From Sedimentisphaerales bacterium (GTDB lineage: Bacteria > Planctomycetota > Phycisphaerae > Sedimentisphaerales > UBA12454): 42,965 nucleotides of DNA. The translations under genes and the position numbers were made by a program. This document shows positions 2,583 through 28,781 of the stretch, piece by piece. How positions within the stretch are numbered: the stretch's first letter is position 1; every line of letters starts with the position of its first letter. A model generated the notes under the pieces. The model was given only the letters and a program-made list of their open reading frames with translations. It searched no databases and was not told where the DNA came from. The DNA is taken from contig JAFGGI010000031.1 in assembly GCA_016930635.1 (NCBI GenBank), positions 1 through 42,965 on the forward strand, in the 5' to 3' direction.

Positions 2583-5500
2583 TTAAGGATTCATCCCCTC
2601 ATTATAAAGCTGCCCAACTTCAGCCTCACTTAAAGCCCTGTCATAAACACGAACATCATCAAGATCTCCATTAAACCAATAGCCGCCATTCCTTGAACCT
2701 ATTCTTAAAGGTTCATCATTGGCAATGCCGAATACCGCCGTTTGCGGCAATGTCCCGGCCGGGGTTCCATTTATATAGAAATTGACACTATCGCCCTCTT
2801 CTAAAGTTATAGCAACATGCTGCCATGTTCCAGTCGCAAGCGAAGATGTTGAAGTATAAGTTGTAAACGTAGTTGCTCCTGTCTGGTGAATGAATTGTAA
2901 AAAACCCGAAGTCTGACTCAGCCTCAATTCGTAATTGCCCGGAACGGCAGACGTTCGCTTGACTAAGACATAATAATAACTGCCGAAATTATCCGGCCTT
3001 ATCCAGGCAGTGATAGTCATCTGATTATCCATATCAAGAGAGTCATCGTTATCAGGGATTATGATATCGTCATCGACACCGTCAAAATTCAATGCGCTGT
3101 TAATTTTACCTGCTATCCAGGTTGCTCCACCATTGATAGTTCCGTCATTGTCGCCCCCGGCCGAATCATTCGCTGTCGTCCCGCCGAATTCGTCAAACTT
3201 CCACCAGCCGACAAGATTAGGGTCTATTGGCTCCGACTCAGACCATGTCGTAAAACTCCATAACGTACCGCCAGTAGTACCACTTACATTTTTCTCATCT
3301 ATACGCCAGTAATACATCGTATTTACATCAAGATCGCCTGGCTCATAACTTGTTGCAGCCTGATTACCTATAAACGGCGGAGGATTTACTGTTCCAAAAT
3401 ATACATCGTGCGATGTGGCAGCGGCACCTGCTGTCCAGCTTAATACAACAGCATATGGATCAACATCATTGCTGCCGCTGGTCGGAAAAGGATTACTTGC
3501 TTTGAAATGATAATACGGATCCAGTTCAAATACACATGCTGAGCCGGAATCTGCTCCATTATCATCATCGCCATGAGCACCAACAACACAATAATCACTA
3601 CTTATACCTGCCGAACAGCCAAAATAATCGTAGCTGCCGCCGGGCAAAAACGCCAGTTTCGTCTGCGTCCACTCTGCACCGTTCCATTTAAATAGATATG
3701 CCGAGCCGCTGTCAGTTCCGTTATCATCATTGCCCATCGCTCCAACAATACACCTGTCGCCATTGATACCCACACAGCAGCCGAAGTAATCTTCACTGGC
3801 GCCTCCCAAAGCGGTCAGCTTAGCCTCTTGAATCCAGCTTGACCCGTTGAATTCGAATATATATGCAGACCCGCTCTGCGAACCATTATCATCATCATTC
3901 AGCGCCCCGATAATACAACGACCGCCATTAATACTTACTGATTTGCCAAAATAATCCAGGCTATCGCCATCCGAAGCAGCCAGCTTATACTGCTCAGTCC
4001 AGCTCGATCCGTTCCTTTCGAATATATATGCTGCACCGGTATTTGCCTTATTGCCGTCACCGCCTTTGGCCCCGATGATACAATTATCACCGTCGATACT
4101 TACACCGCATCCGAAGTAATCAAAAATCCCGCTATCCGAAGCCGTCAATTTAGCCTGCTGTGTCCAGCTTGTACCATTGAATTCGAATATATATACTGAG
4201 CCGCTGTTTAATCCGCTATCATCATCACAGTCAGCTCCGATTACACAATAATTGCCGCTGATGCTTACCGAACCACCAAAACCATCACCGCTGCTGCCGT
4301 CTGAAGCGGTAAGCTTAGCATCCTGTATCCAGCTTGTTCCGTTGAATTCAAATATATATGCCGCCCCGCTGTTGGCGCCGTTATCATCATCACCTTTAGC
4401 GCCGACAATACACCGGCTGCCTACGATACTTACCGAACAGCCGAACATATCTTCACTCGTCCCATCTAAAGCGATCAGCTTGGCTATTTCATCCCAGTCT
4501 GTTCCGTTTCGTTCGAATATATATGCTGCGCCGCTATTTGTGCCGTTGTCATCATCTTCAATGACTCCGACTATGCAGCTCTCACCGTCAATACTCGACG
4601 AATAGCCGAACCGATCTCCGCTATCACCATCTGAAGCTGCCAATGGAACATAGTAAGTTTCATCTTGTGTATCCAATTGAAATACATATGCTGAACCGCT
4701 ATGGAAACCATTATCACCATCACCGATAGCTCCAATAATACAATAATCACCGCCGATACTTACCGACCAGCCAAAGAAATCTCCGCTGGCACCGTCCGAA
4801 GCTGTAAACTTGGTCTCTTCCCAGCTTGCACCGTTGAATTCAAATATGTATGCCGAGCCGCTATATGATCCATTATCATCATCTCCTCTGGCTCCGATAA
4901 TACAGCGGTCGCCATCAATACTTACCGAACGGCCAAAGCTATCACCACTGGCACCATCCGAAGCTGTCAGCCTGGCCTGCTGTACCCAGCCTGTACCATT
5001 CCATTTGAATATATATGCTGAGCCGGTATTATCTCCATTATTATCACCATAGACCCCGACAATACATCGGTCGCCGTCAATGCTTACTGAATAGCCAAAA
5101 AAATTACCCTCGGTACCATCCGAAGCCATTAGTTTAGTTTGCTCGATCCAGCTTGTCCCATTCCATTCGAATATATATGCCGAGCCCCCAGGATTATCGT
5201 CACCACTGGCTCCAACAATACAGCGCCCGCCATCAATACTTACCGACTGACCGAACCAATCATAACTGGCACTATCCGAAGCAGTCAGTTTGGTCTGTTG
5301 AATCCAGTTTGATCCGTTCCATTCGAATATATATGCCGAGCCGCTATATGATCCATTATTATCATCTCCTTCGGCTCCGATAATACAGCGGTCGCCGTCA
5401 ATACTTACCGAAATGCCAAAGTAATCCCCGGCAGCACCATCCGAAGCTGTCAGCTTGGCCTGCTGGACCCAGTCTGTCCCGTTCCATTCGAATATGTATG

Positions 5501-7418
5501 CTGAACCGCTCCTGTATCCATTATCATCATCACGGTAGGCCCCGACAATACAGCGCCCGCCATCGATACTTACTGAACGGCCGAAATAATCTCCACTGGC
5601 ACCATCCAAAGTTGTCAGCTTGGTCTTTTCCCAGCTTGTTCCGTTCCATTCGAATATATATGCCGAACTGCTATACGCGTTTTCACGATAAGCTCCGACA
5701 ATACAGCGGTTGCCATCGATACCTACCGAATGACCAAATTCTTCACCAGAGACACCTGTTAGCTTAGGCATATTAGCTGTTTTAAAGTTCCAAATATTTC
5801 CTTTCGCTGTGCACGCAGGTCCTACTGCATCAACTCTCCAGTAATAAGATGTATAAAGGTCAAGACCGTATGTATTAAAGTTTGCATTCGTTACTGTACC
5901 CATAAATTCTTCAGAAAGACGGTCAGCATTGGCCACGGCATCGGCATCAGTGCCAAGATAAACATCATGCTCCAACGCTCCATAGTACGCGAGCCATTGA
6001 AGAGTTATATTTATGTCCACATTTAACGCGTTATTAACTGGTTTCAGATAACGTGCTCGTTCTACGAGACAATCAAGCCAGGCATCTGCCATTATCAAGA
6101 GGTCTTCAAAATCAACATACCAATCCCTTGTAAGGTCGCCGGCCAAATTAGGCTCGGCTTTGCGCCAATCATTAGCCAGGATAGAAAGATCGATATTATT
6201 AACAATGAGATCCCCATCAATATCAGGATTGTCTGATCCTAAACCTGGGTAGTGATAGCCCATATCCACAATTCCCCCATCATAGATCTCATCAGTTCGC
6301 GTGGTATATTTATCCATTCCTAAATTAGCTGCCATATCACTTCCGGCATCAACACACGGACTATTAAACTGTCCTGCTGCAGCCTGGCTTAAATAATAAT
6401 CTCCCAACGGCCCGGTTACAAAGCTTGGGTGAACATCTATATTTCCCGTCCCCGCATAGCCGTCTTCAATATCAGAATACGAAACACTCAAAACATCAGA
6501 CAACTGATTGCCTGATAAGTTACCCCATACTATACTGTTAATAACTGTTGCCGGCCCGTAAATCCCGCCGCCTCCTCCACTATAATCGCCGAGAGACGCA
6601 AAGGTATCATTACCAACAATAGTACAATTGCGAACAATAGTATTGCTTTTATAACAGGCAATACCACCGCCAACACTTGCCCCATATCCATAGTCGTCTC
6701 TTATGGGTACTGTTCGATTTTCAATGATTAAACAATTATCTATAACAGAACTACCACTTTCAATAGCGATCCCACCACCATAACTGCGACCGGCAGAAGG
6801 TGGTGGTGTATCCCCGTAACCTGTGTCCGATACTCCATAACCTCCTTTAGAAGTGTTGCCGGAGATTTTACAATTATAAACATATATACTGCTGGCATCA
6901 CAATAAATCCCGCCGCCATACGACCAACCTATTGACTCAAATATCGCTTCACCTAAGACAGAATTATTACTGATATCACAGTTTATAATTATTGAATCGC
7001 TTCCGGATACACAGGCTATTCCTCCGCCACAATTATTATAATCCCCATTAGTCGTATTATTTATAATTTGACAATTTGTAATTGTAGGCGAAGCGCCATC
7101 ACAAAGAATACCCCCTCCATAAGCACTATCATAATACGGATCAATCATACCGTTTGTTACAGTCAGACCTGAAAGAACGCTGTTTGAATCTTCGCCGTTT
7201 TGAAAAACAAATCCTCTGCCGTCCTGCTCACAATCTATAACCGTTGCCGCAACTATATTCGGATCTTGTGGGTCTGTACTTCGTACAGTAATTGCTCTGC
7301 CGACGAAATCCAGGTCCTTGTTGCCAATGCCGGTATAGGTCCCCGGCGAAATAATAACCATATCACCGTTGAAAGATGCATTTATCGCAGCCTGGATGGT
7401 CGTATACTGGCTCGGCAC
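2583..7418 (-). CDS. Giant secreted beta-helix / dockerin / FG-GAP propeller / LamG protein
   Basis: Probable extracellular or surface protein of at least 1611 residues; function unknown. Domains in order: right-handed beta-helix (about 1-390, starting with the TIQAAI pattern and GGGI repeats); dockerin-like pair of calcium repeats (about 397-450, DIDGDLIVNNIDLSILANDW and a second repeat); fibronectin-like segment (455-548); fourteen FG-GAP-like repeats of about 54 residues (561 to about 1310); second fibronectin-like segment; C-terminal LamG/concanavalin-like domain (about 1405-1611, starting LVGWWKFDEF). The first usable canonical codon is GTG at 7418. However, the frame stays open to 7517 and encodes a good signal peptide (RRRSQVISILAIVSLFSSF). 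The true start may therefore be ATT at 7497-7499, with AGAGG just upstream. Adhesion or polysaccharide binding is plausible; no catalytic motif was identified. Confidence 0.85.
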   Translation of the reverse strand: MPSQYTTIQAAINASFNGDMVIISPGTYTGIGNKDLDFVGRAITVRSTDPQDPNIVAATVIDCEQDGRGFVFQNGEDSNSVLSGLTVTNGMIDPYYDSAYGGGILCDGASPTITNCQIINNTTNGDYNNCGGGIACVSGSDSIIINCDISNNSVLGEAIFESIGWSYGGGIYCDASSIYVYNCKISGNTSKGGYGVSDTGYGDTPPPSAGRSYGGGIAIESGSSVIDNCLIIENRTVPIRDDYGYGASVGGGIACYKSNTIVRNCTIVGNDTFASLGDYSGGGGGIYGPATVINSIVWGNLSGNQLSDVLSVSYSDIEDGYAGTGNIDVHPSFVTGPLGDYYLSQAAAGQFNSPCVDAGSDMAANLGMDKYTTRTDEIYDGGIVDMGYHYPGLGSDNPDIDGDLIVNNIDLSILANDWRKAEPNLAGDLTRDWYVDFEDLLIMADAWLDCLVERARYLKPVNNALNVDINITLQWLAYYGALEHDVYLGTDADAVANADRLSEEFMGTVTNANFNTYGLDLYTSYYWRVDAVGPACTAKGNIWNFKTANMPKLTGVSGEEFGHSVGIDGNRCIVGAYRENAYSSSAYIFEWNGTSWEKTKLTTLDGASGDYFGRSVSIDGGRCIVGAYRDDDNGYRSGSAYIFEWNGTDWVQQAKLTASDGAAGDYFGISVSIDGDRCIIGAEGDDNNGSYSGSAYIFEWNGSNWIQQTKLTASDSASYDWFGQSVSIDGGRCIVGASGDDNPGGSAYIFEWNGTSWIEQTKLMASDGTEGNFFGYSVSIDGDRCIVGVYGDNNGDNTGSAYIFKWNGTGWVQQARLTASDGASGDSFGRSVSIDGDRCIIGARGDDDNGSYSGSAYIFEFNGASWEETKFTASDGASGDFFGWSVSIGGDYCIIGAIGDGDNGFHSGSAYVFQLDTQDETYYVPLAASDGDSGDRFGYSSSIDGESCIVGVIEDDDNGTNSGAAYIFERNGTDWDEIAKLIALDGTSEDMFGCSVSIVGSRCIVGAKGDDDNGANSGAAYIFEFNGTSWIQDAKLTASDGSSGDGFGGSVSISGNYCVIGADCDDDSGLNSGSVYIFEFNGTSWTQQAKLTASDSGIFDYFGCGVSIDGDNCIIGAKGGDGNKANTGAAYIFERNGSSWTEQYKLAASDGDSLDYFGKSVSINGGRCIIGALNDDDNGSQSGSAYIFEFNGSSWIQEAKLTALGGASEDYFGCCVGINGDRCIVGAMGNDDNGTDSGSAYLFKWNGAEWTQTKLAFLPGGSYDYFGCSAGISSDYCVVGAHGDDDNGADSGSACVFELDPYYHFKASNPFPTSGSNDVDPYAVVLSWTAGAAATSHDVYFGTVNPPPFIGNQAATSYEPGDLDVNTMYYWRIDEKNVSGTTGGTLWSFTTWSESEPIDPNLVGWWKFDEFGGTTANDSAGGDNDGTINGGATWIAGKINSALNFDGVDDDIIIPDNDDSLDMDNQMTITAWIRPDNFGSYYYVLVKRTSAVPGNYELRLSQTSGFLQFIHQTGATTFTTYTSTSSLATGTWQHVAITLEEGDSVNFYINGTPAGTLPQTAVFGIANDEPLRIGSRNGGYWFNGDLDDVRVYDRALSEAEVGQLYNEGMNP

Positions 7419-21328: not shown

Positions 21329-21356
21329 TTGACAAATACGTAATTTGTGCTATAAT
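21329..21356 (+). promoter_or_regulatory. Strong extended -10 promoter of the HAF/PEP-CTERM leader
   Basis: TTGACA (21329-21334), 16-nt spacer ending AATTTGTGC, TATAAT (21351-21356). Both hexamers are perfect and there is an extended -10 TG. The same AATTTGTG word precedes the -10 of the second HAF gene. Confidence 0.85.
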
Positions 21357-21545: not shown

Positions 21546-22730
21546 ATGAAAGTTTCGAAAACTATCTTCTTCGCCGTAATTATTGTTTCTACTCTCACCG
21601 CTTTCGGCAACGGATACTTGCCCGTTATCGATCTGGGTACGCTGGGCGGAGAATCCAGTTATGCTATTTCCATCAGCCATCTTGGGCGAATTGTCGGCGC
21701 TGCTGATAATAACTCCGGCAGCTTCAGCGCATGTGTCTATCAGCCGGGTGACGCCAGCCAAAACAGAGACCTCGGAACACTTGGCGGAGCTTACAGCGAA
21801 GCCTACAGCAGTAATAACGCAGGGCAGATAGTCGGTTATGCTATGAACAGCTTCGGCTACGAACGTGCCTGCCGATTCAATGCAACAGGCGGCGGAGCAA
21901 ATACAGATCTGGGCACACTCGGAGGAAACTGGAGCAGTGCCAGCTGCACTAATAATTACGGTCAAATCGTCGGCGTCGCAGATAATGGTACTTCCTATGG
22001 CAGAGCCTGTTCATTCGATCCGACAGGCGGCGGTGTTAATACAGACCTTGGCACGCTCGGCGGGGACTGGAGCAGTGCATATTCTATAAATAATGCCGGT
22101 CAGATAGTCGGCAAGGCGAATAATAGTACCAACAACAGACGTGCCTGTCTTTTTGATCCAACCGGCGGCGGAGCAAATATAGATCTCGGCGCTTTTGTTT
22201 CTGTTGATGAACAAATACCAAATGGAGACTGGAGCGTTGCCTATTCTATTAATAACGCCGGCCAGATAGTTGGAGAAGCCGACGGTACCTACGAGCATTC
22301 TTTTAGTTCACAGGCTTGTATTTTTGACCCGACAGGCGATGCCAATAACATTATTCGCCTTGGCGGACTGCACAGTGATAATCAATACCCTAACAGCGTG
22401 GCTCGATGCATCAACGATATCGGCCAGATCGTAGGGGCAGTCTATTCAGGTCTACAGTCGCGGGCTTGTCTTTTCGACCCGAACGGTGTCCTCTGGTCTT
22501 ATGAAACTTACAATGAAAATAATATAGACCTTAACACTTTGATAGATCCCAACTGCGGCTGGCTGCTGACAGATGCCTGGAGCATAAACAATAACGGCTG
22601 GATAGTCGGCCAGGGGGTAAATCCTGCCGGCGATGCACATGCGTTCCTGCTCGTGCCCGAACCTGCGACGATTTGCCTGTTGACCGTCGGCTGTGTTAGC
22701 CTTATTCGCAGAAAAAAGAAAAAGACCTGA
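21546..22730 (+). CDS. HAF-repeat surface protein with PEP-CTERM anchor
   Basis: 394-residue secreted protein. It begins with a signal peptide (MKVSKTIFFAVIIVSTLTAFG), then about seven HAF-type repeats of the form DLGTLGG ... A.SINNAGQIVG ... ACLFDPTG, each about 45 residues. It ends in a PEP-CTERM sorting signal: VPEPAT, a hydrophobic segment, then RRKKKK. By family knowledge the tail is cut by an exosortase in organisms that make exopolysaccharide, leaving the repeats outside the cell. AGGAG sits 8 nt before the ATG. It is a paralogue of the gene at 24397, which has a dockerin in place of the PEP-CTERM tail. Its function is unknown; a structural or binding role on the surface is inferred. 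Confidence 0.85.
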   Translation: MKVSKTIFFAVIIVSTLTAFGNGYLPVIDLGTLGGESSYAISISHLGRIVGAADNNSGSFSACVYQPGDASQNRDLGTLGGAYSEAYSSNNAGQIVGYAMNSFGYERACRFNATGGGANTDLGTLGGNWSSASCTNNYGQIVGVADNGTSYGRACSFDPTGGGVNTDLGTLGGDWSSAYSINNAGQIVGKANNSTNNRRACLFDPTGGGANIDLGAFVSVDEQIPNGDWSVAYSINNAGQIVGEADGTYEHSFSSQACIFDPTGDANNIIRLGGLHSDNQYPNSVARCINDIGQIVGAVYSGLQSRACLFDPNGVLWSYETYNENNIDLNTLIDPNCGWLLTDAWSINNNGWIVGQGVNPAGDAHAFLLVPEPATICLLTVGCVSLIRRKKKKT

Positions 22731-22945
22731 CCGTAAATTGAATTTTAAATAAATAATACTTTATAGAAAACGCTGTTTGTCATTCTGAGGCGAAACCGAA
22801 GAATCTCCTTTTTGGAGCAGAAAAGATTCTTCACTTTGCTTGCGCTCCGTTCAGAATGACATATTTATTGCCTTTTCTACTAAGCAAACAAAAAAGCTGA
22901 CATCTTATCAAGGTTGCCGGCTTTTTTTAAATCACTATGCTCCTG
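22731..22945. repeat. Palindromic repeat between convergent genes
   Basis: GTCATTCTGAGGCGAAACCG...CGTTCAGAATGACA (about 22777-22861) is a long imperfect palindrome with inner GAATCTC/AAGATTC arms, of a widespread extragenic repeat type. It is followed by AAAAAAGC...GGCTTTTTTT (about 22889-22928), a weak bidirectional terminator for the two converging genes. Confidence 0.6.
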
Positions 22946-23887
22946 TTATGGATACTCGGGTTCTTCGCCCCGTGAAAGGGACCCAATTATTTTATATGTC
23001 TTATAGAAAAATGTCTGGTAGGTTATCATTCCCATCTCAAAAGGTTCCCATTTGTCATGAGAAAAAGCTCGCTGGTCGTCGCAGAAAAATACATGCCCGT
23101 CCTTGAACAAAGTATTTGCCGCGTAAAGGCCATCTGCTGTTCGATGGGCAAACGGTTTCGGATACTTTCTTAATTCTTCTATGGGGGCACCGGCAGGCTC
23201 AGTCCTTTTCCAGATAAAGTCGGTCAGATACGGTAGTGCTGTATCAAGTTCGGCAAATCTGCGGGCAGTATAAGCAGGCGCCTGATACACCGGATGTATC
23301 AGTGTGCCCGGGCTTGTAGGATAATAAGTATAGCCTGTACGTACATACTGATTGCCATAATATCCCAGGTTATTGATTACCTGCGGCAGTGTACCCCATT
23401 CGGTGCTGGTATTCGGTAGTGCGGGGTTGGTATAAGAGTTGTATTGATAAAGTGGATTTGTCTCTGACGGGCAATAGAAGATTTTCGGATCACTTATAAT
23501 GCCGGCTTCATATAGACAGGCTAACCTGAACGGTCTGAGGCTCCCATCAGGGTTCACACCGGGATATGTATCACGGTATGCAAGAAACGGATGAATTTCT
23601 CCGTCGTAGGGACATTCCCAAATACCCACTCCCAAATCACAATTAAACGGAGGTTTATAAGCCGGGTCCTTTCCGCCGTACCAGGGCAGTAAACCATCAT
23701 TGCTTGCGGCGTACACAACAAAGGCCGTTCCCATTTGCCTGAGCTGATTGGCACATTGCGCCCGCCTGGCAGATTCTTCAGCTATGTCGAACGAAGGCAC
23801 AAGAGCTATACAGATAGTGAATGAAAAAACGATAACAAATATCACCGCTAACAGGTCGATCCGTGTAAAGCCTCTTCTATTCCTCAT
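22946..23887 (-). CDS. Large pseudopilin-like protein, copy 1
   Basis: 313-residue protein with a prepilin N-terminus: short basic leader MRNRRG, predicted cleavage before FTRIDLLAVIFVIVFSF, Asp instead of the usual Glu at position +5, then a large periplasmic or extracellular domain. The domain shares long blocks with three paralogues: QLRQMG near residue 45, SLRPFRLACLYEAGIISDP, IFYCPSE, EWGTLPQ, APAYTARR, LFKDGHVFFC and SRGEEP. The last blocks resemble the DG end motif of planctomycete pseudopilins. It should be processed by a prepilin peptidase and placed by a type II secretion or pilus machine encoded elsewhere. It is in inverted orientation to the very similar gene at 27822. Confidence 0.85.
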   Translation of the reverse strand: MRNRRGFTRIDLLAVIFVIVFSFTICIALVPSFDIAEESARRAQCANQLRQMGTAFVVYAASNDGLLPWYGGKDPAYKPPFNCDLGVGIWECPYDGEIHPFLAYRDTYPGVNPDGSLRPFRLACLYEAGIISDPKIFYCPSETNPLYQYNSYTNPALPNTSTEWGTLPQVINNLGYYGNQYVRTGYTYYPTSPGTLIHPVYQAPAYTARRFAELDTALPYLTDFIWKRTEPAGAPIEELRKYPKPFAHRTADGLYAANTLFKDGHVFFCDDQRAFSHDKWEPFEMGMITYQTFFYKTYKIIGSLSRGEEPEYP

Positions 23888-23940
23888 AATACTGCCTCTA
23901 TGCGTGAAAATAAAATTTTTATATCGCTTTTATTACGAAC

Positions 23941-23969
23941 ATTTTACACGAAATCAGGATATATATCAA
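23941..23969 (-). promoter_or_regulatory. Promoter of pseudopilin copy 1
   Basis: On the - strand, TTGATA (23964-23969), 17-nt spacer, TAAAAT (23941-23946), giving a leader of about 50 nt before the ATG at 23887. Confidence 0.65.
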
Positions 23970-24105
23970 TATAATTCGACCGCTTGCTTTAATAAACGAG
24001 GTAATATGCGATTTTTTCGGTAATTGTGCGATGAATGGAGAGTCAAATTTCGATAAAAACAGGATATTAGCCGTCATAAAAGTCGGCAGTTAATATATTT
24101 TTTCC

Positions 24106-24133
24106 TTGACATATCAGAAATTTGTGTTACCAT
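24106..24133 (+). promoter_or_regulatory. Extended -10 promoter of the HAF/dockerin operon
   Basis: TTGACA (24106-24111), 16-nt spacer ending AAATTTGTGT, TACCAT (24128-24133), with a TG one base before the -10. Its design matches the promoter at 21329 (same spacer length and same AATTTGTG word), although the leaders downstream differ. Confidence 0.65.
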
Positions 24134-24139
24134 ATAGGA

Positions 24140-24396
24140 GTAATGATGTGTTGACGTGGGCAAAAAATTATAACCCAAATTCAGTCATTATAATTTTGTT
24201 GTTTTTACATCATACCTTTTTAGCCCACCTCTTAGCACTGTTTTAAATCTTAACATCTCATTTCGATTGCAGCCCAGTCGGTGACAGTCCGTCTTGTGCG
24301 AAGGCTAATACCGGCGAAAAACAGTTCTGACGACCAATATGCGCTGGTAAATATGTATGCATGGTGAAAAGATGATTTAGATAAGGAGAAAAAACC
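24140..24396 (+). ncRNA. Long leader with a predicted pseudoknot
   Basis: About 257 nt precede the ATG at 24397 without a gene. Seen: TGATGT (24144-24149) pairs with ACATCA (24207-24212). GTGGGC (24156-24161) pairs with GCCCAC (24223-24228). ATTATAA (24167-24173) pairs with TTATAAT (24188-24194). The first two helices cross, which makes an H-type pseudoknot. Further down, AGCC...GGCT and ACCA...TGGT arms enclose a GGTGACAGTCCG segment. This could be a regulatory leader. No known riboswitch class was recognised and the fold was found by eye. 23888-24105 holds only the promoters. Confidence 0.4.
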
Positions 24397-25668
24397 ATGA
24401 GAATGTCAGGAATTATCGCGTGTGCTATATTTATAAATTTTACCCTCGGTGGTACAACCACTGTCTCCGCATATAATGAGATCATCGACCTGGGGGGCCT
24501 CGACGGTTATCCGGTCGGTTATGCCAGGTATATAAACGACTGGGGCAAAATAGTCGGATGGGTCGAAAGCAATGATGTTAATGATAGTAATACTATTGCC
24601 TGTCTATTTGATAACACAGGCGGCGGGGCAAATATAAACCTGGGCGGCGCAGGAAGTGCCGCCCTTTGTTGTCTGAGCAGAATAGTAGGTCAGAGCGCAT
24701 ATTATCACGTATATAATAACCCTCCGATCTACGATCCTAATTACAGCCGGGCCTGTGTCTTTGATATGGCCGGCGATGTCAATAATATTTTTGAACTCGG
24801 AGCGCTGGGTGAACCCTGGCCATATATTCCAGACAGTAGCAATGAGAGTGGAGCACAATCCATCAGTCACTACGGCCAGATAGTTGGATATGCTTACGAT
24901 GGCTCCGGAGATGAATATAATCCGGGACTTTATCTTGCCTGTCTTTTCGATGCGACAGGACAATATGAAAATAAAAGCCTTGGAACACTCGGCGGCTATG
25001 TAAGTGAAGCTTTAGGTAATAATGAGGCTTTAATAGTAGGTTATGCCGATAACGCTTTGAATTATGAGCGCGCCTGCATTTTTGATCCGACAGGCGATGC
25101 CAATAATAATATAGACCTCGGAACACTCGGCGGCGACTGCAGCGGAGCGTGGTCGATTAACGACAGCAATCAGATCGTCGGCTGGGCATTAGACAGTTCA
25201 GATAATTACCGTGCCTGTCTTTTCGATGCGACCGGTGATGCCAACAATAATATAGACCTCGGCACGCTCGGCGGCAATCACAGCGAAGCGTATTTTATCA
25301 ACGACCTCGGCCAGGCCGTAGGATATGCTTATGATATGTGGGGACAGAAACGTGCCTGCCTTTTCAACGGCGGCAACGAAAATATAGACCTTAACTCACT
25401 CGTAGATCCTAACAGCGGGTGGATATTACAATACGCCTTCGGTATTAACAATGACGGATGGATCGTAGGTTCCGGAACTCTGGGTGGGACGGAAAACTCA
25501 CCGGGACTTACACGCGCTTTCCTCCTAAAGCCGCCAATGCCTCCGACATGCATCGCCAAACCGATAGGCGACCTCAACGGCGATTGTATAGTTAATCTCG
25601 CCGACTTCGCACTAATAGCAAACAACTGGCTACAGTGTAATATCCACCCGTCAAGTGCCTGCTGGTAA
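24397..25668 (+). CDS. HAF-repeat secreted protein with C-terminal dockerin
   Basis: 423 residues. A signal peptide (about residues 1-27, ending TTVSA) is followed by about seven HAF-type repeats, for example IDLGTLGGNHSEAYFINDLG with ACLFDATGDANNN between them. A C-terminal dockerin-like calcium segment, GDLNGDCIVNLADFALIANN then W, ends at the stop. It is a paralogue of the gene at 21546 with a different attachment tail. A dockerin would bind a cohesin partner; none is encoded here. AAGGAG lies 10 nt upstream of the ATG. Three pseudopilin genes follow on the same strand with gaps of 35-49 nt, so co-transcription is likely. Confidence 0.85.
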   Translation: MRMSGIIACAIFINFTLGGTTTVSAYNEIIDLGGLDGYPVGYARYINDWGKIVGWVESNDVNDSNTIACLFDNTGGGANINLGGAGSAALCCLSRIVGQSAYYHVYNNPPIYDPNYSRACVFDMAGDVNNIFELGALGEPWPYIPDSSNESGAQSISHYGQIVGYAYDGSGDEYNPGLYLACLFDATGQYENKSLGTLGGYVSEALGNNEALIVGYADNALNYERACIFDPTGDANNNIDLGTLGGDCSGAWSINDSNQIVGWALDSSDNYRACLFDATGDANNNIDLGTLGGNHSEAYFINDLGQAVGYAYDMWGQKRACLFNGGNENIDLNSLVDPNSGWILQYAFGINNDGWIVGSGTLGGTENSPGLTRAFLLKPPMPPTCIAKPIGDLNGDCIVNLADFALIANNWLQCNIHPSSACW

Positions 25669-25717
25669 ACTGAGAATTTAACTGCGCCTTTAGGGTCTTG
25701 TGAAAAGGAGATATGAA

Positions 25718-26785
25718 ATGGAAAAGAACCGAGAAAAAGATTTAAGCCCGTTAAATGAAATAAAAAACCTGGGAACGGGGCATAAATCATTTGATGAAGA
25801 TGGCGGTCTTGTGCCGCCATCTTCACTCGTTAAGAAAAAATATTGTTCAACAGGCCTAACGTTGGTTGAATTACTTGTAGTGATCGTAATCATCACTTTT
25901 TCACTCTCACTTTGTGCTGCTCTTGGGCCCTCGTTAAACAGGGCCCAAGAGTCTGCCAACATCGCAAAATGTGCCTACCAGCTCAAACAGATGGGGCTGG
26001 CAATGGCTGTGTATGCCGACTGCTACGGCGGAGACTTGCCGTGGTCCGGCGGTTATGACCCGAATTTTAAGTCACCTTTTAATTGCCCGATGCAGTATCC
26101 TTATAACCCGCTAACTTCTAACTGCCCGGCAGATAGTGAGATACATCCGTGGCTTGTGTATCGTAATACATGGCCCGGCGTAAAGCCCGATGGGAGCCTA
26201 AGGCCGTTAAGGTTGGCCTGTCTATATGAGGCAGGCATTATAAGTGACCCGAAAATATTTTACTGTCCATCGGAGACGCATCCGCTATATCTTTATGAAA
26301 GCTATACTAACCCTATGCCGCCAAATGACAGTAATGAATGGGGTACACTGCCGCAGGAAATTAACGCTCAAGGCAATCAGTATGTACGTACAGGATATAC
26401 CTATTATCCTACAGACCCAACGATTCCGCTTAATTCGCTATGGCAGGCACCTGCTTATACCGCCAGGAAATACGGCAAAATGGATGATACTATACCGTAT
26501 CTGACAGACCGTATCTGGAAAAGAGACGAACCTGCCGGTGCTCCGTGGGAAGAATTAATAAAGTATCCCAAACCATTTTCTCATAGACTCGGAGGCCTCT
26601 ATTCAGTAAACGCCCTGTTCAAGGATGGTCATATATTTTACTGTAAAAATCAGGATGTCTTTGGTGACGACACCAATCCGGTTTGGCTGCAATTTGAATG
26701 TGGTTCTGCAGCCTACCAGACATTTTTCTATAAAACATATCAGGCGATTGGAAGATGCTCGAGGGGTGAGGATCCCTGGCCATAA
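25718..26785 (+). CDS. Large pseudopilin-like protein, copy 2, with long leader peptide
   Basis: 355 residues from ATG 25718, chosen over GTG 25700 because AAAGGAG lies 8 nt upstream of the ATG and overlaps the GTG reading. It has the prepilin motif STG before LTLVELLVVIVIIT with the canonical Glu at +5, and the same large domain as its paralogues (SLRPLRLACLYEAGIISDP, IFYCPSE, APAYTARK, LFKDGHIFYC). Unlike them, it has about 46 residues before the cleavage site. That leader contains a 12-bp perfect palindrome (25795-25806 with 25814-25825), which looks like an inserted element. It is second in the HAF/dockerin run. Confidence 0.85.
   Translation: MEKNREKDLSPLNEIKNLGTGHKSFDEDGGLVPPSSLVKKKYCSTGLTLVELLVVIVIITFSLSLCAALGPSLNRAQESANIAKCAYQLKQMGLAMAVYADCYGGDLPWSGGYDPNFKSPFNCPMQYPYNPLTSNCPADSEIHPWLVYRNTWPGVKPDGSLRPLRLACLYEAGIISDPKIFYCPSETHPLYLYESYTNPMPPNDSNEWGTLPQEINAQGNQYVRTGYTYYPTDPTIPLNSLWQAPAYTARKYGKMDDTIPYLTDRIWKRDEPAGAPWEELIKYPKPFSHRLGGLYSVNALFKDGHIFYCKNQDVFGDDTNPVWLQFECGSAAYQTFFYKTYQAIGRCSRGEDPWP
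25795..25825. repeat. 12-bp palindrome inside the pseudopilin leader coding region
   Basis: TGAAGATGGCGG and CCGCCATCTTCA are perfectly complementary across a 7-nt loop. It lies in frame within the unusual leader of the gene at 25718. Confidence 0.7.
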
Positions 26786-26832
26786 TAAATTTGACGAACT
26801 AAAATGCTTCATCTTTCATAGAGAGGTGATTT

Positions 26833-27786
26833 ATGAAGAATATGAAAAGAGGTTTCACGCGGGCTGAGCTGGCGGTAGTAATTTTCATTATCACTTTTTC
26901 ACTTTCTATATGTGCGGCTTTAGGGCCTTCAATGGATATGGCCCAAGAGTCTGCTAACCGGATAATATGCGCTGACAGGCTAAGGCAAATAGGTATGGCA
27001 ATGGCGGTATATGCCGCAAGCAATGATGACTTACTGCCATGGTACGGCGGCGTTGACCCGGATTTTAAACCTCCGTTTGACTGTGAGATGGAATATCCCT
27101 ATAATCCCCATGACGATTGTCCCCGCGATAATGAAATCCATCCATATGTTGCGTTTAGAGATGCACCTCAGACGTTTATAGACCCAAACGGCCATCTCAT
27201 TCCATTAAGATTGGGCTGTTTATACAAAGCCGGCGTCGTAAGTGACCCGAGAATATTCTACTGCCCGTCCGAGACAAGACCACTTTATCAATATGATTCT
27301 TATACCAGGCCTCTTATGCCGAATACCAGTTATGAATGGGGCACACTGCCACAGATGATAAATATATCTCAGCACTATTATGGTAATCAGTGGGTACGCA
27401 CAGGTTATTGTTATTATCCCACGAGCCCGAGTATTCCAATAGACTTATATTATCAGGCACCTGCCTACACTGCCCGCAGATACAGCGAACTTGATACGGC
27501 AATACCGTATTTGTCAGACTTTATCTGGAAAAGGGACCAGGTTGGGCTGCCGATAGAAGAATTGAGAAAATACCCGAAGCCGATAGCTCATCAAAGAGGC
27601 GGCATCTATGCAGTAAACGCCCTGTTTAAAGACGGCAGTGTATATTACTGTAAAGACCAGCGCGTTTTTAATGATAATCCGACCTGGGAACCTTTCGAGA
27701 TGGGCCAGATAACGTATAGCAGATTTTTCTATGAGACTTATAAGGCGATCGCGAGATGCTCGAGAGGCGAAGAGCCCTGGGACTAA
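26833..27786 (+). CDS. Large pseudopilin-like protein, copy 3
   Basis: 317 residues with leader MKNMKRG, cleavage before FTRAELAVVIFIITFSL (Glu at +5), and the shared domain: QMGMAM-like IGMAMAVYAASNDDLLPWYG, LGCLYKAGVVSDP, IFYCPSE, YEWGTLPQ, APAYTARRY, LFKDGSVYYC (Ser in place of His after DG) and SRGEEP. GAGAGGTG lies before the ATG. It is third in the run and more diverged from copies 1 and 4 than those are from each other. It is probably a minor pilin-like subunit or surface protein with a divergent binding face; this is inferred. Confidence 0.85.
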   Translation: MKNMKRGFTRAELAVVIFIITFSLSICAALGPSMDMAQESANRIICADRLRQIGMAMAVYAASNDDLLPWYGGVDPDFKPPFDCEMEYPYNPHDDCPRDNEIHPYVAFRDAPQTFIDPNGHLIPLRLGCLYKAGVVSDPRIFYCPSETRPLYQYDSYTRPLMPNTSYEWGTLPQMINISQHYYGNQWVRTGYCYYPTSPSIPIDLYYQAPAYTARRYSELDTAIPYLSDFIWKRDQVGLPIEELRKYPKPIAHQRGGIYAVNALFKDGSVYYCKDQRVFNDNPTWEPFEMGQITYSRFFYETYKAIARCSRGEEPWD

Positions 27787-27821
27787 TAATCTGAAAAATT
27801 ATCCGCTGAAACGGTGATATT

Positions 27822-28781
27822 ATGAAGAATAAATCAAAAGCCTTTACGCAGATCGATTTATTAGCGGTGATTTTTGTTATCGTTTTTTCATTCACTATCT
27901 GTATAGCTCTTGTGCCTTCGTTCGACAGGGCAGAAGAGGCCGCCAGGCGAGCTCAATGTGCCAACCAGCTCAGGCAGATGGGCACAGCCTTTGCCGTCTA
28001 TGCCGCAAGCAATGATGGTTTACTGCCGTGGTACGGCGGGATAGATCCAGCTTATAAAGGTGATTTTCAGTGTGAATTACATTATCCTTATTACCCAACA
28101 AATTCTGACTGTCCCGAGGACAGAGAAATTCATCCGTTTCTTGCATACCGTGATACGAGTCCCGGCCTGTGTCCTGATGGAAGTCTCAGGCCGTTCAGGT
28201 TGGCTTGTCTATATGAAGCAGGTATTATAAGTGATCCGAGAATATTTTACTGCCCATCGGAGACGCATCCGCAATATCTTTATGAGAGCTATACCGACCC
28301 ATTGCCGCCGAATACGAGTACCGAATGGGGTACACTTCCGCAGAAAATAAATTCCGTCACAGGTGCCTATGGTAATCAGTGGGTACGTGTAGGATATACT
28401 TATTATCCTATAAACCCGAGTACACCGATAAATTTGATATGGCAGGCACCTGCGTTTACCGCCCGCAGATACAGCGAACTTGACGCAGCAATACCTTATT
28501 TAACCGACCGTATCTGGAAAAGGGATGAGCCTCCCGGTGCCCCCATAGAAGTACTGCGTCACCGCCCAAAACCGTTTGCCCATCGAACAGCAGATGGTCT
28601 TTACGCGGTAAATGCCCTGTTTAAAGATGGCCATGTATTTTTCTGTGACGACCAGCGGCCTTTTACTCACAACAAATGGGAACCTTTTGAAATTGGTTAT
28701 TGTAGCTATCAAACGTTTTTCTATAAGACGTATAAAATAATTGGGTCTCTTTCAAGGGGCGAAGAACCGGATTATCCATAA
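27822..28781 (+). CDS. Large pseudopilin-like protein, copy 4
   Basis: 319 residues. Leader MKNKSKA ends in Ala, not Gly, before FTQIDLLAVIFVIVFSF, again with Asp at +5. The processing site is therefore doubly non-canonical. The shared domain is complete (LACLYEAGIISDP, IFYCPSE, EWGTLPQ, APAFTARRY, LFKDGHVFFC, SRGEEP). It is strikingly similar at DNA level to the inverted copy at 22946, including a run of about 55 identical bases in the region encoding the membrane helix. It is the last gene of the run; no strong terminator is seen before apbE, which converges. Confidence 0.85.
   Translation: MKNKSKAFTQIDLLAVIFVIVFSFTICIALVPSFDRAEEAARRAQCANQLRQMGTAFAVYAASNDGLLPWYGGIDPAYKGDFQCELHYPYYPTNSDCPEDREIHPFLAYRDTSPGLCPDGSLRPFRLACLYEAGIISDPRIFYCPSETHPQYLYESYTDPLPPNTSTEWGTLPQKINSVTGAYGNQWVRVGYTYYPINPSTPINLIWQAPAFTARRYSELDAAIPYLTDRIWKRDEPPGAPIEVLRHRPKPFAHRTADGLYAVNALFKDGHVFFCDDQRPFTHNKWEPFEIGYCSYQTFFYKTYKIIGSLSRGEEPDYP

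Follow-up and report, generated by a model that had tools for sequence, protein, structure and literature searches.

Duplicated DUF1559-type pseudopilin genes downstream of a gene for a HAF-repeat protein with a dockerin-like tail in a Sedimentisphaerales bacterium

Gene layout of the HAF/pilin cluster

Two genes for secreted HAF-repeat proteins lie together with four genes for paralogous pseudopilins in a Sedimentisphaerales bacterium. Do these six genes encode one surface system, or do the pilins belong with some of their neighbours only? The window, i.e. the whole stretch of 42,965 nucleotides that was analysed, was one contig (C45) of a 2.45-Mb, 96%-complete genome in 64 contigs. Housekeeping genes were found on both sides of the cluster; pheT, purB-like, ftsH, dsbD and SAICAR synthetase genes were located elsewhere in the window, and a gene at 2583-7418 (minus strand) encoded a large repeat-type surface protein of 1611 aa in which 13 FG-GAP repeats were recognised together with a LamG domain and, internally, a dockerin-like stretch. 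All six open reading frames of the original prediction, two for HAF-repeat proteins and four for paralogous pseudopilins, were recovered, with the following features.

21329..21356 (+), HAF1 promoter, TTGACA-N16-TATAAT with TG before the -10 (12/12 hexamer matches)
21546..22730 (+), HAF1, secreted HAF-repeat protein of 394 aa with a PEP-CTERM tail (TIGR02913 E 8.5e-29; TIGR02595 above cut-off)
22946..23887 (-), P1, DUF1559-type pseudopilin of 313 aa, alone on the opposite strand (PF07596 E 7.8e-8; 79% identity to P4)
23969-23941 (-), promoter-like sequence of P1, TTGATA-N17-TAAAAT (sequence pattern)
24106..24133 (+), HAF2 promoter, TTGACA-N16-TACCAT, designed as that of HAF1 (pattern search)
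24397..25668 (+), HAF2, secreted HAF-repeat protein of 423 aa, predicted beta-propeller with a dockerin-like tail (TIGR02913 E 1.4e-18; model pLDDT 77.5; Foldseek beta-propeller matches)
25549..25665 (+), dockerin-like tail of HAF2 (..GDLNGDCIVNLADFALIANNWLQC..C), one calcium-loop unit (Dockerin_1 14.4 bits, under the 22.9 cut-off; tail profile 74.5 bits, from a profile built with the HAF2 sequence included)
25718..26785 (+), P2, pseudopilin of 355 aa, start uncertain, 49 nt 3' of HAF2 (PF07963 E 5.8e-4 and PF07596 E 1.9e-3, both sub-cut-off; family alignment)
26833..27786 (+), P3, pseudopilin of 317 aa (PF07596 E 4.4e-3, sub-cut-off; identity to paralogues and family alignment)
27822..28781 (+), P4, pseudopilin of 319 aa (PF07596 E 1.8e-6; AlphaFold pLDDT 87)

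HAF2, P2, P3 and P4 were on the same strand with intergenic gaps of 49, 47 and 35 nt, and going by this spacing they are likely to form a single operon. Co-transcription, predicted for the whole set, was thus possible for HAF2-P2-P3-P4 but restricted to them, because P1 is on the opposite strand and convergent with HAF1. A 12-nt perfect inverted repeat (TGAAGATGGCGG / CCGCCATCTTCA, window 25795-25825) was seen within the N-terminal leader of P2, which is unusually long.

Two HAF proteins with different tails

Both HAF proteins scored above the curated TIGR02913 cut-off of 22.65 bits (HAF1 99.2 and HAF2 66.6 bits) but differed in their tails. The predicted alternative tails were confirmed: HAF1 ended in a PEP-CTERM sequence (TIGR02595, 20.7 bits, cut-off 16, with the exosortase that accompanies it also present in the genome), and HAF2 in a dockerin-like sequence whose match was weak, sub-threshold and limited to one loop. 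The HAF2 model (pLDDT 77.5) contained repeated beta-strands, with the tail at low confidence, and its top Foldseek matches included beta-propellers, e.g. TolB and lectin propellers.

A search for partners of the two tails, as had been proposed, detected two exosortases, on contigs C2 and C40, but no cohesin: PF00963 had no match in the 96%-complete genome, although a diverged cohesin is possible. About 60 dockerin-tailed proteins were encoded there. The HAF1 tail and the two exosortase genes resembled PEP-CTERM/exosortase sorting (PMC1569441), with HAF2 and the pilins outside it. HAF2 resembled components of the cellulosome dockerin-cohesin system in having a dockerin-like calcium-loop tail on a secreted protein, such proteins being often carbohydrate-active, but differed in that its tail was a single loop under the Pfam cut-off (type I dockerins have paired repeats) and no cohesin was found in the genome.

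The promoter design common to both HAF genes was also confirmed, TTGACA-N5-GNAATTTGTGNTANNAT being present at 21329 and 24106. This pattern, which was derived from the two HAF sites themselves, had two zero-mismatch sites only in the 2.45-Mb genome, one site with 1 mismatch and nine with 3. The HAF1/HAF2 promoter belonged to a group: searching with its pattern led to four unlinked loci of the same genome, where a promoter of this type had a conserved GGAGAAAACGCG...CGCGTTTTT hairpin after it.

L063:1501-1612 (+), leader hairpin locus on contig C14
L069:1419-1528 (-), leader hairpin locus on contig C51
L070:1501-1601 (+), leader hairpin locus on contig C55
L072:1416-1528 (-), leader hairpin locus on contig C58

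Each of these leaders preceded a gene with a PEP-CTERM-like end; on C58 the first ORF had a variant end and the second a clear PEP-CTERM. The hairpin was terminator-like, with a lower stem AAAACGCG / CGCGTTTT and a variable upper stem, and fold z-scores of the four copies ranged from -3.2 to -5.1. A covariance model of the four leaders retrieved those four only from the genome, leaving HAF1 and HAF2 unmatched, and gave one fair match in a relative (G008, L154), upstream of a PEP-CTERM ORF. Rfam had no credible match for the HAF/pilin region or the leader loci. The leader hairpin is a candidate attenuator of a PEP-CTERM regulon. The HAF1 leader was considered as a hairpin of this kind and rejected: the chosen stretch had a z-score of -0.22, no better than shuffles, and the model (R1) did not match it.

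The pilins form a subfamily of PF07596

The four paralogues, predicted to be of 310-355 residues, measured 313-355 residues. They could be assigned to a family: all matched PF07596 (DUF1559/SBP_bac_10; E 7.8e-8 to 4.4e-3), P1 (33.1 bits) and P4 (28.7) above the cut-off of 23.3 and P2 (18.7) and P3 (17.5) below it. P2 and P3 were 64-66% identical to P1/P4. Judged by these sequence matches, the window pilins are prepilin-like DUF1559/SBP_bac_10 pseudopilins. The blocks CLYEAGIISDP, IFYCPSE and EWGTLPQ, described as not assignable to a known function, turned out to be the conserved core of a PF07596 subfamily, with diverged forms in relatives. TIGR04294 (H-X9-DG pilin-associated domain) gave no match up to E=1, despite a reminiscent H254..D269-G270.

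The prepilin cleavage/methylation motif scored 19.8 bits against PF07963 in P2 (cut-off 21.2); in P1 and P4, Asp replaced Glu at position +5. According to the family alignment the prepilin N-terminus was canonical in most members, and the paralogues on C9, C26 and C38 started with GFTLVELLVVI. In all four window pilins the N-terminal helix contained an insertion of three residues. The P4 AlphaFold model (pLDDT 87) consisted of a long N-terminal helix (residues 10-63) followed by a C-domain. The N-terminus of the pilin profile matched solved structures of the type IV pilins PilE1 and PilA and of GspG. Foldseek of the model against PDB and viral structures returned nothing at E<=0.001; since the C-domain had no PDB match, the fold gives no reading of function. 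The pilins are like T2SS pseudopilins (GspG/GspH) and type IV pilins in the predicted long N-terminal helix and, for most family members, in the cleavage/methylation motif, but unlike them in a C-domain of ~250 residues whose fold has no PDB match and in their place outside a machinery operon. T2SS/T4P ATPase genes occurred at many places in the genome, and contig C54 carried two PilB-like, one PilT-like and one PilC-like gene together with pseudopilins (named by sequence inspection).

Could these proteins be solute- or glycan-binding proteins retained in the envelope, neither filaments nor cargo handlers? PF07596 was labelled a solute-binding family in earlier work (PMC2754498; the older SBP_bac_10 name), and the Asp for Glu at +5 in P1 and P4 would fit such a role. 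The canonical prepilin N-terminus of most members, the profile matches to pilins and GspG, and the long pilin-like helix of the model argue against it, and we consider it quite unlikely.

Local amplification of the pilin genes

Eight close members of the subfamily were found in the genome, four in the window, two on C9 and one each on C26 and C38. The subfamily was present in 14/59 genomes (this one counted) and in 16/298 at class level, and relatives with it had one copy each at the thresholds used. An alignment of the pilins searched against GTDB r220 contigs gave a single weak match, in a Phycisphaerae MAG. In the tree, the eight copies formed one group (100/98), within which those of the window made up a single branch (98/93). 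The tree indicates that the four window pilins arose through local amplification of a subfamily that is single-copy in relatives. They were 63-79% identical in pairwise comparisons, and dN/dS values of 0.13-0.24 indicated purifying selection.

Expansion of PF07596 pilin-like proteins is known from Planctomycetes (PMC8567305, PMC2754498). The window pilins are like the Planctomycetes N_methyl + SBP_bac_10 proteins (PF07596; PMC8567305; PMC2754498) in Pfam family, prepilin-like N-terminus, paralogue expansion and signal-peptide neighbours. Compared with these proteins, distinctive features of the window subfamily are conserved blocks of its own and a tie to a dockerin-tailed gene upstream; among the relatives searched it mostly occurs once per genome, against eight copies in this genome.

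HAF genes and pilin genes are not generally linked

The co-occurrence expected of HAF and pilin genes was not found. HAF genes were present in 6/14 pilin-positive and 21/45 pilin-negative genomes (Fisher p=1), and none lay near the pilin in 17 orthologous pilin neighbourhoods. The HAF sample comprised 39 genes, 21 with PEP-CTERM tails, 13 with other ends and 5 with dockerin-like tails. A pilin gene was directly downstream of 0/21 and 0/13 in the first two classes, and of 2/5 in the third, namely in the window and in the relative genome G026 (Fisher p 0.013; 0.11 on leaving out the window, which was the source of the hypothesis). Thus a position beside a pilin operon, as that of HAF2, is rare among HAF genes (2/39 sampled).

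A joint surface assembly, in which HAF proteins with either tail act with the pilin family, would account for the co-location in the window, the promoter design common to HAF1 and HAF2, the place of HAF2 49 nt 5' of P2 and the order in G026, where a HAF-dockerin gene is followed by a prepilin gene; it is very unlikely in view of the absent phyletic link, the 17 orthologous pilins without HAF nearby, the 21 PEP-CTERM HAF genes without a pilin next to them, and the convergence of HAF1 and P1 on opposite strands. On this survey there is no general HAF-pilin system, and HAF1 is no part of one. What stood of the predicted joint role was HAF2, directly upstream of the likely pilin operon. Most likely HAF1 takes a separate PEP-CTERM/exosortase route and is a neighbour of the pilin set rather than part of it.

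A dockerin-tailed gene usually precedes the pilin gene in relatives

In 11/17 orthologous pilin loci (5/7 genera), cases that share ancestry and hence are non-independent, the gene product encoded directly upstream on the same strand, at a distance of 0-312 nt, was secreted and had a dockerin-like tail. The same order was seen in the window and on C9 of this genome. These upstream tails were weak, single-loop dockerin matches, mostly ending in a W-L-x-C..C pattern, and the L048 tail was identified from the pattern alone. The bodies of the tail proteins in the relatives' pairs were unrelated: LamG of ~1050 aa, CBM96/PKD of 455-471 aa, and LamG of 900 aa. Further bodies upstream of pilins were HAF (this genome and G026) and two others on C22 and C32 of this genome. 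Because the partner bodies are unrelated, it is the tail, not the body, that the pairs have in common. The gene orders suggest that the dockerin-like tail, not the HAF repeat, is likely to link the secreted protein to the pilin; HAF2 followed by P2 matches this conserved slot, and HAF1 does not.

The reverse direction was weak: 60/64 dockerin-like ORFs of the genome had no pilin directly downstream. Genera g15 and g22 kept the pilin without a dockerin-tailed neighbour, and the tail gene was not the immediate neighbour of P1 or of the C26 and C38 pilins. On C26 (L036, 3796-10930) the pilin paralogue was followed by a GLUG-motif protein and then by three dockerin-like-tailed proteins, the first with RCC1 (beta-propeller) repeats. 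Contig C8 (L167-L169) was dense in dockerin-like ORFs, with 13 across three 20-kb stretches.

The pilins of the subfamily were often at pectin or other carbohydrate loci: the pairs of g2, g32 and contig C9 were found with GH43, pectinesterase, pectate lyase or Gfo/Idh oxidoreductase genes, these calls resting on Pfam for C9 and partly for G045 and on gene order plus sequence likeness for the rest. Such a pectin-locus context raises a real, if somewhat doubtful, possibility of adjacency without function, whereby pseudopilins of carbohydrate loci were duplicated and landed by surface-protein genes, and their adjacency to dockerin-tailed genes reflects no more than the frequency of both kinds in carbohydrate loci and surface-protein loci. 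Dockerin-tailed genes are numerous in the genome and most have no pilin, and in T. immobilis the SBP_bac_10 pilin genes are scattered over the genome, often flanked by signal-peptide genes (PMC8567305). Against mere crowding, the tail gene was directly upstream and on the same strand in the cases found, and its product had three or more unrelated bodies among the relatives. With dockerin-tailed genes at a background of ~3%, it is very unlikely that chance would give six of eight genera, a figure that is overstated owing to the common ancestry of the loci.

Proposed role of the pilins

A joint role of the pilins with tail-bearing secreted proteins is plausible, and the pilins may present or export these proteins. 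Our preferred reading, held tentatively and somewhat short of probable, is that the pilins are a locally duplicated pseudopilin set devoted to secreted proteins that have a dockerin-like tail, and that HAF2 is its cargo in the window. The pilins would be processed by prepilin peptidase and then anchored or assembled via the type II secretion / type IV pilus machinery of the cell. As dedicated partners, they would bind the tail protein and export it or hold it at the surface. Their partner in the window would be HAF2, the predicted beta-propeller, and HAF1 would follow its separate PEP-CTERM/exosortase route. A more specific proposal, which we think unlikely, is that the subfamily C-domain serves as the receptor for dockerin-like tails, pseudopilins replacing cohesin in planctomycetes with dozens of dockerin-tailed proteins and cohesin undetected, and displaying or exporting the protein encoded directly upstream.

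No description of a tail-protein/pseudopilin pairing was found in the literature, as covered by open-licence papers. DUF1559 pilin-like proteins, whose role is unsettled, occur in large sets in Planctomycetes, and this genome encodes its many dockerin-tailed proteins with cohesin undetected. The order of a dockerin-tailed protein gene followed by a pseudopilin gene, seen with at least three unrelated bodies, offers a concrete, testable link between the role of DUF1559 pilins and dockerins without cohesin.
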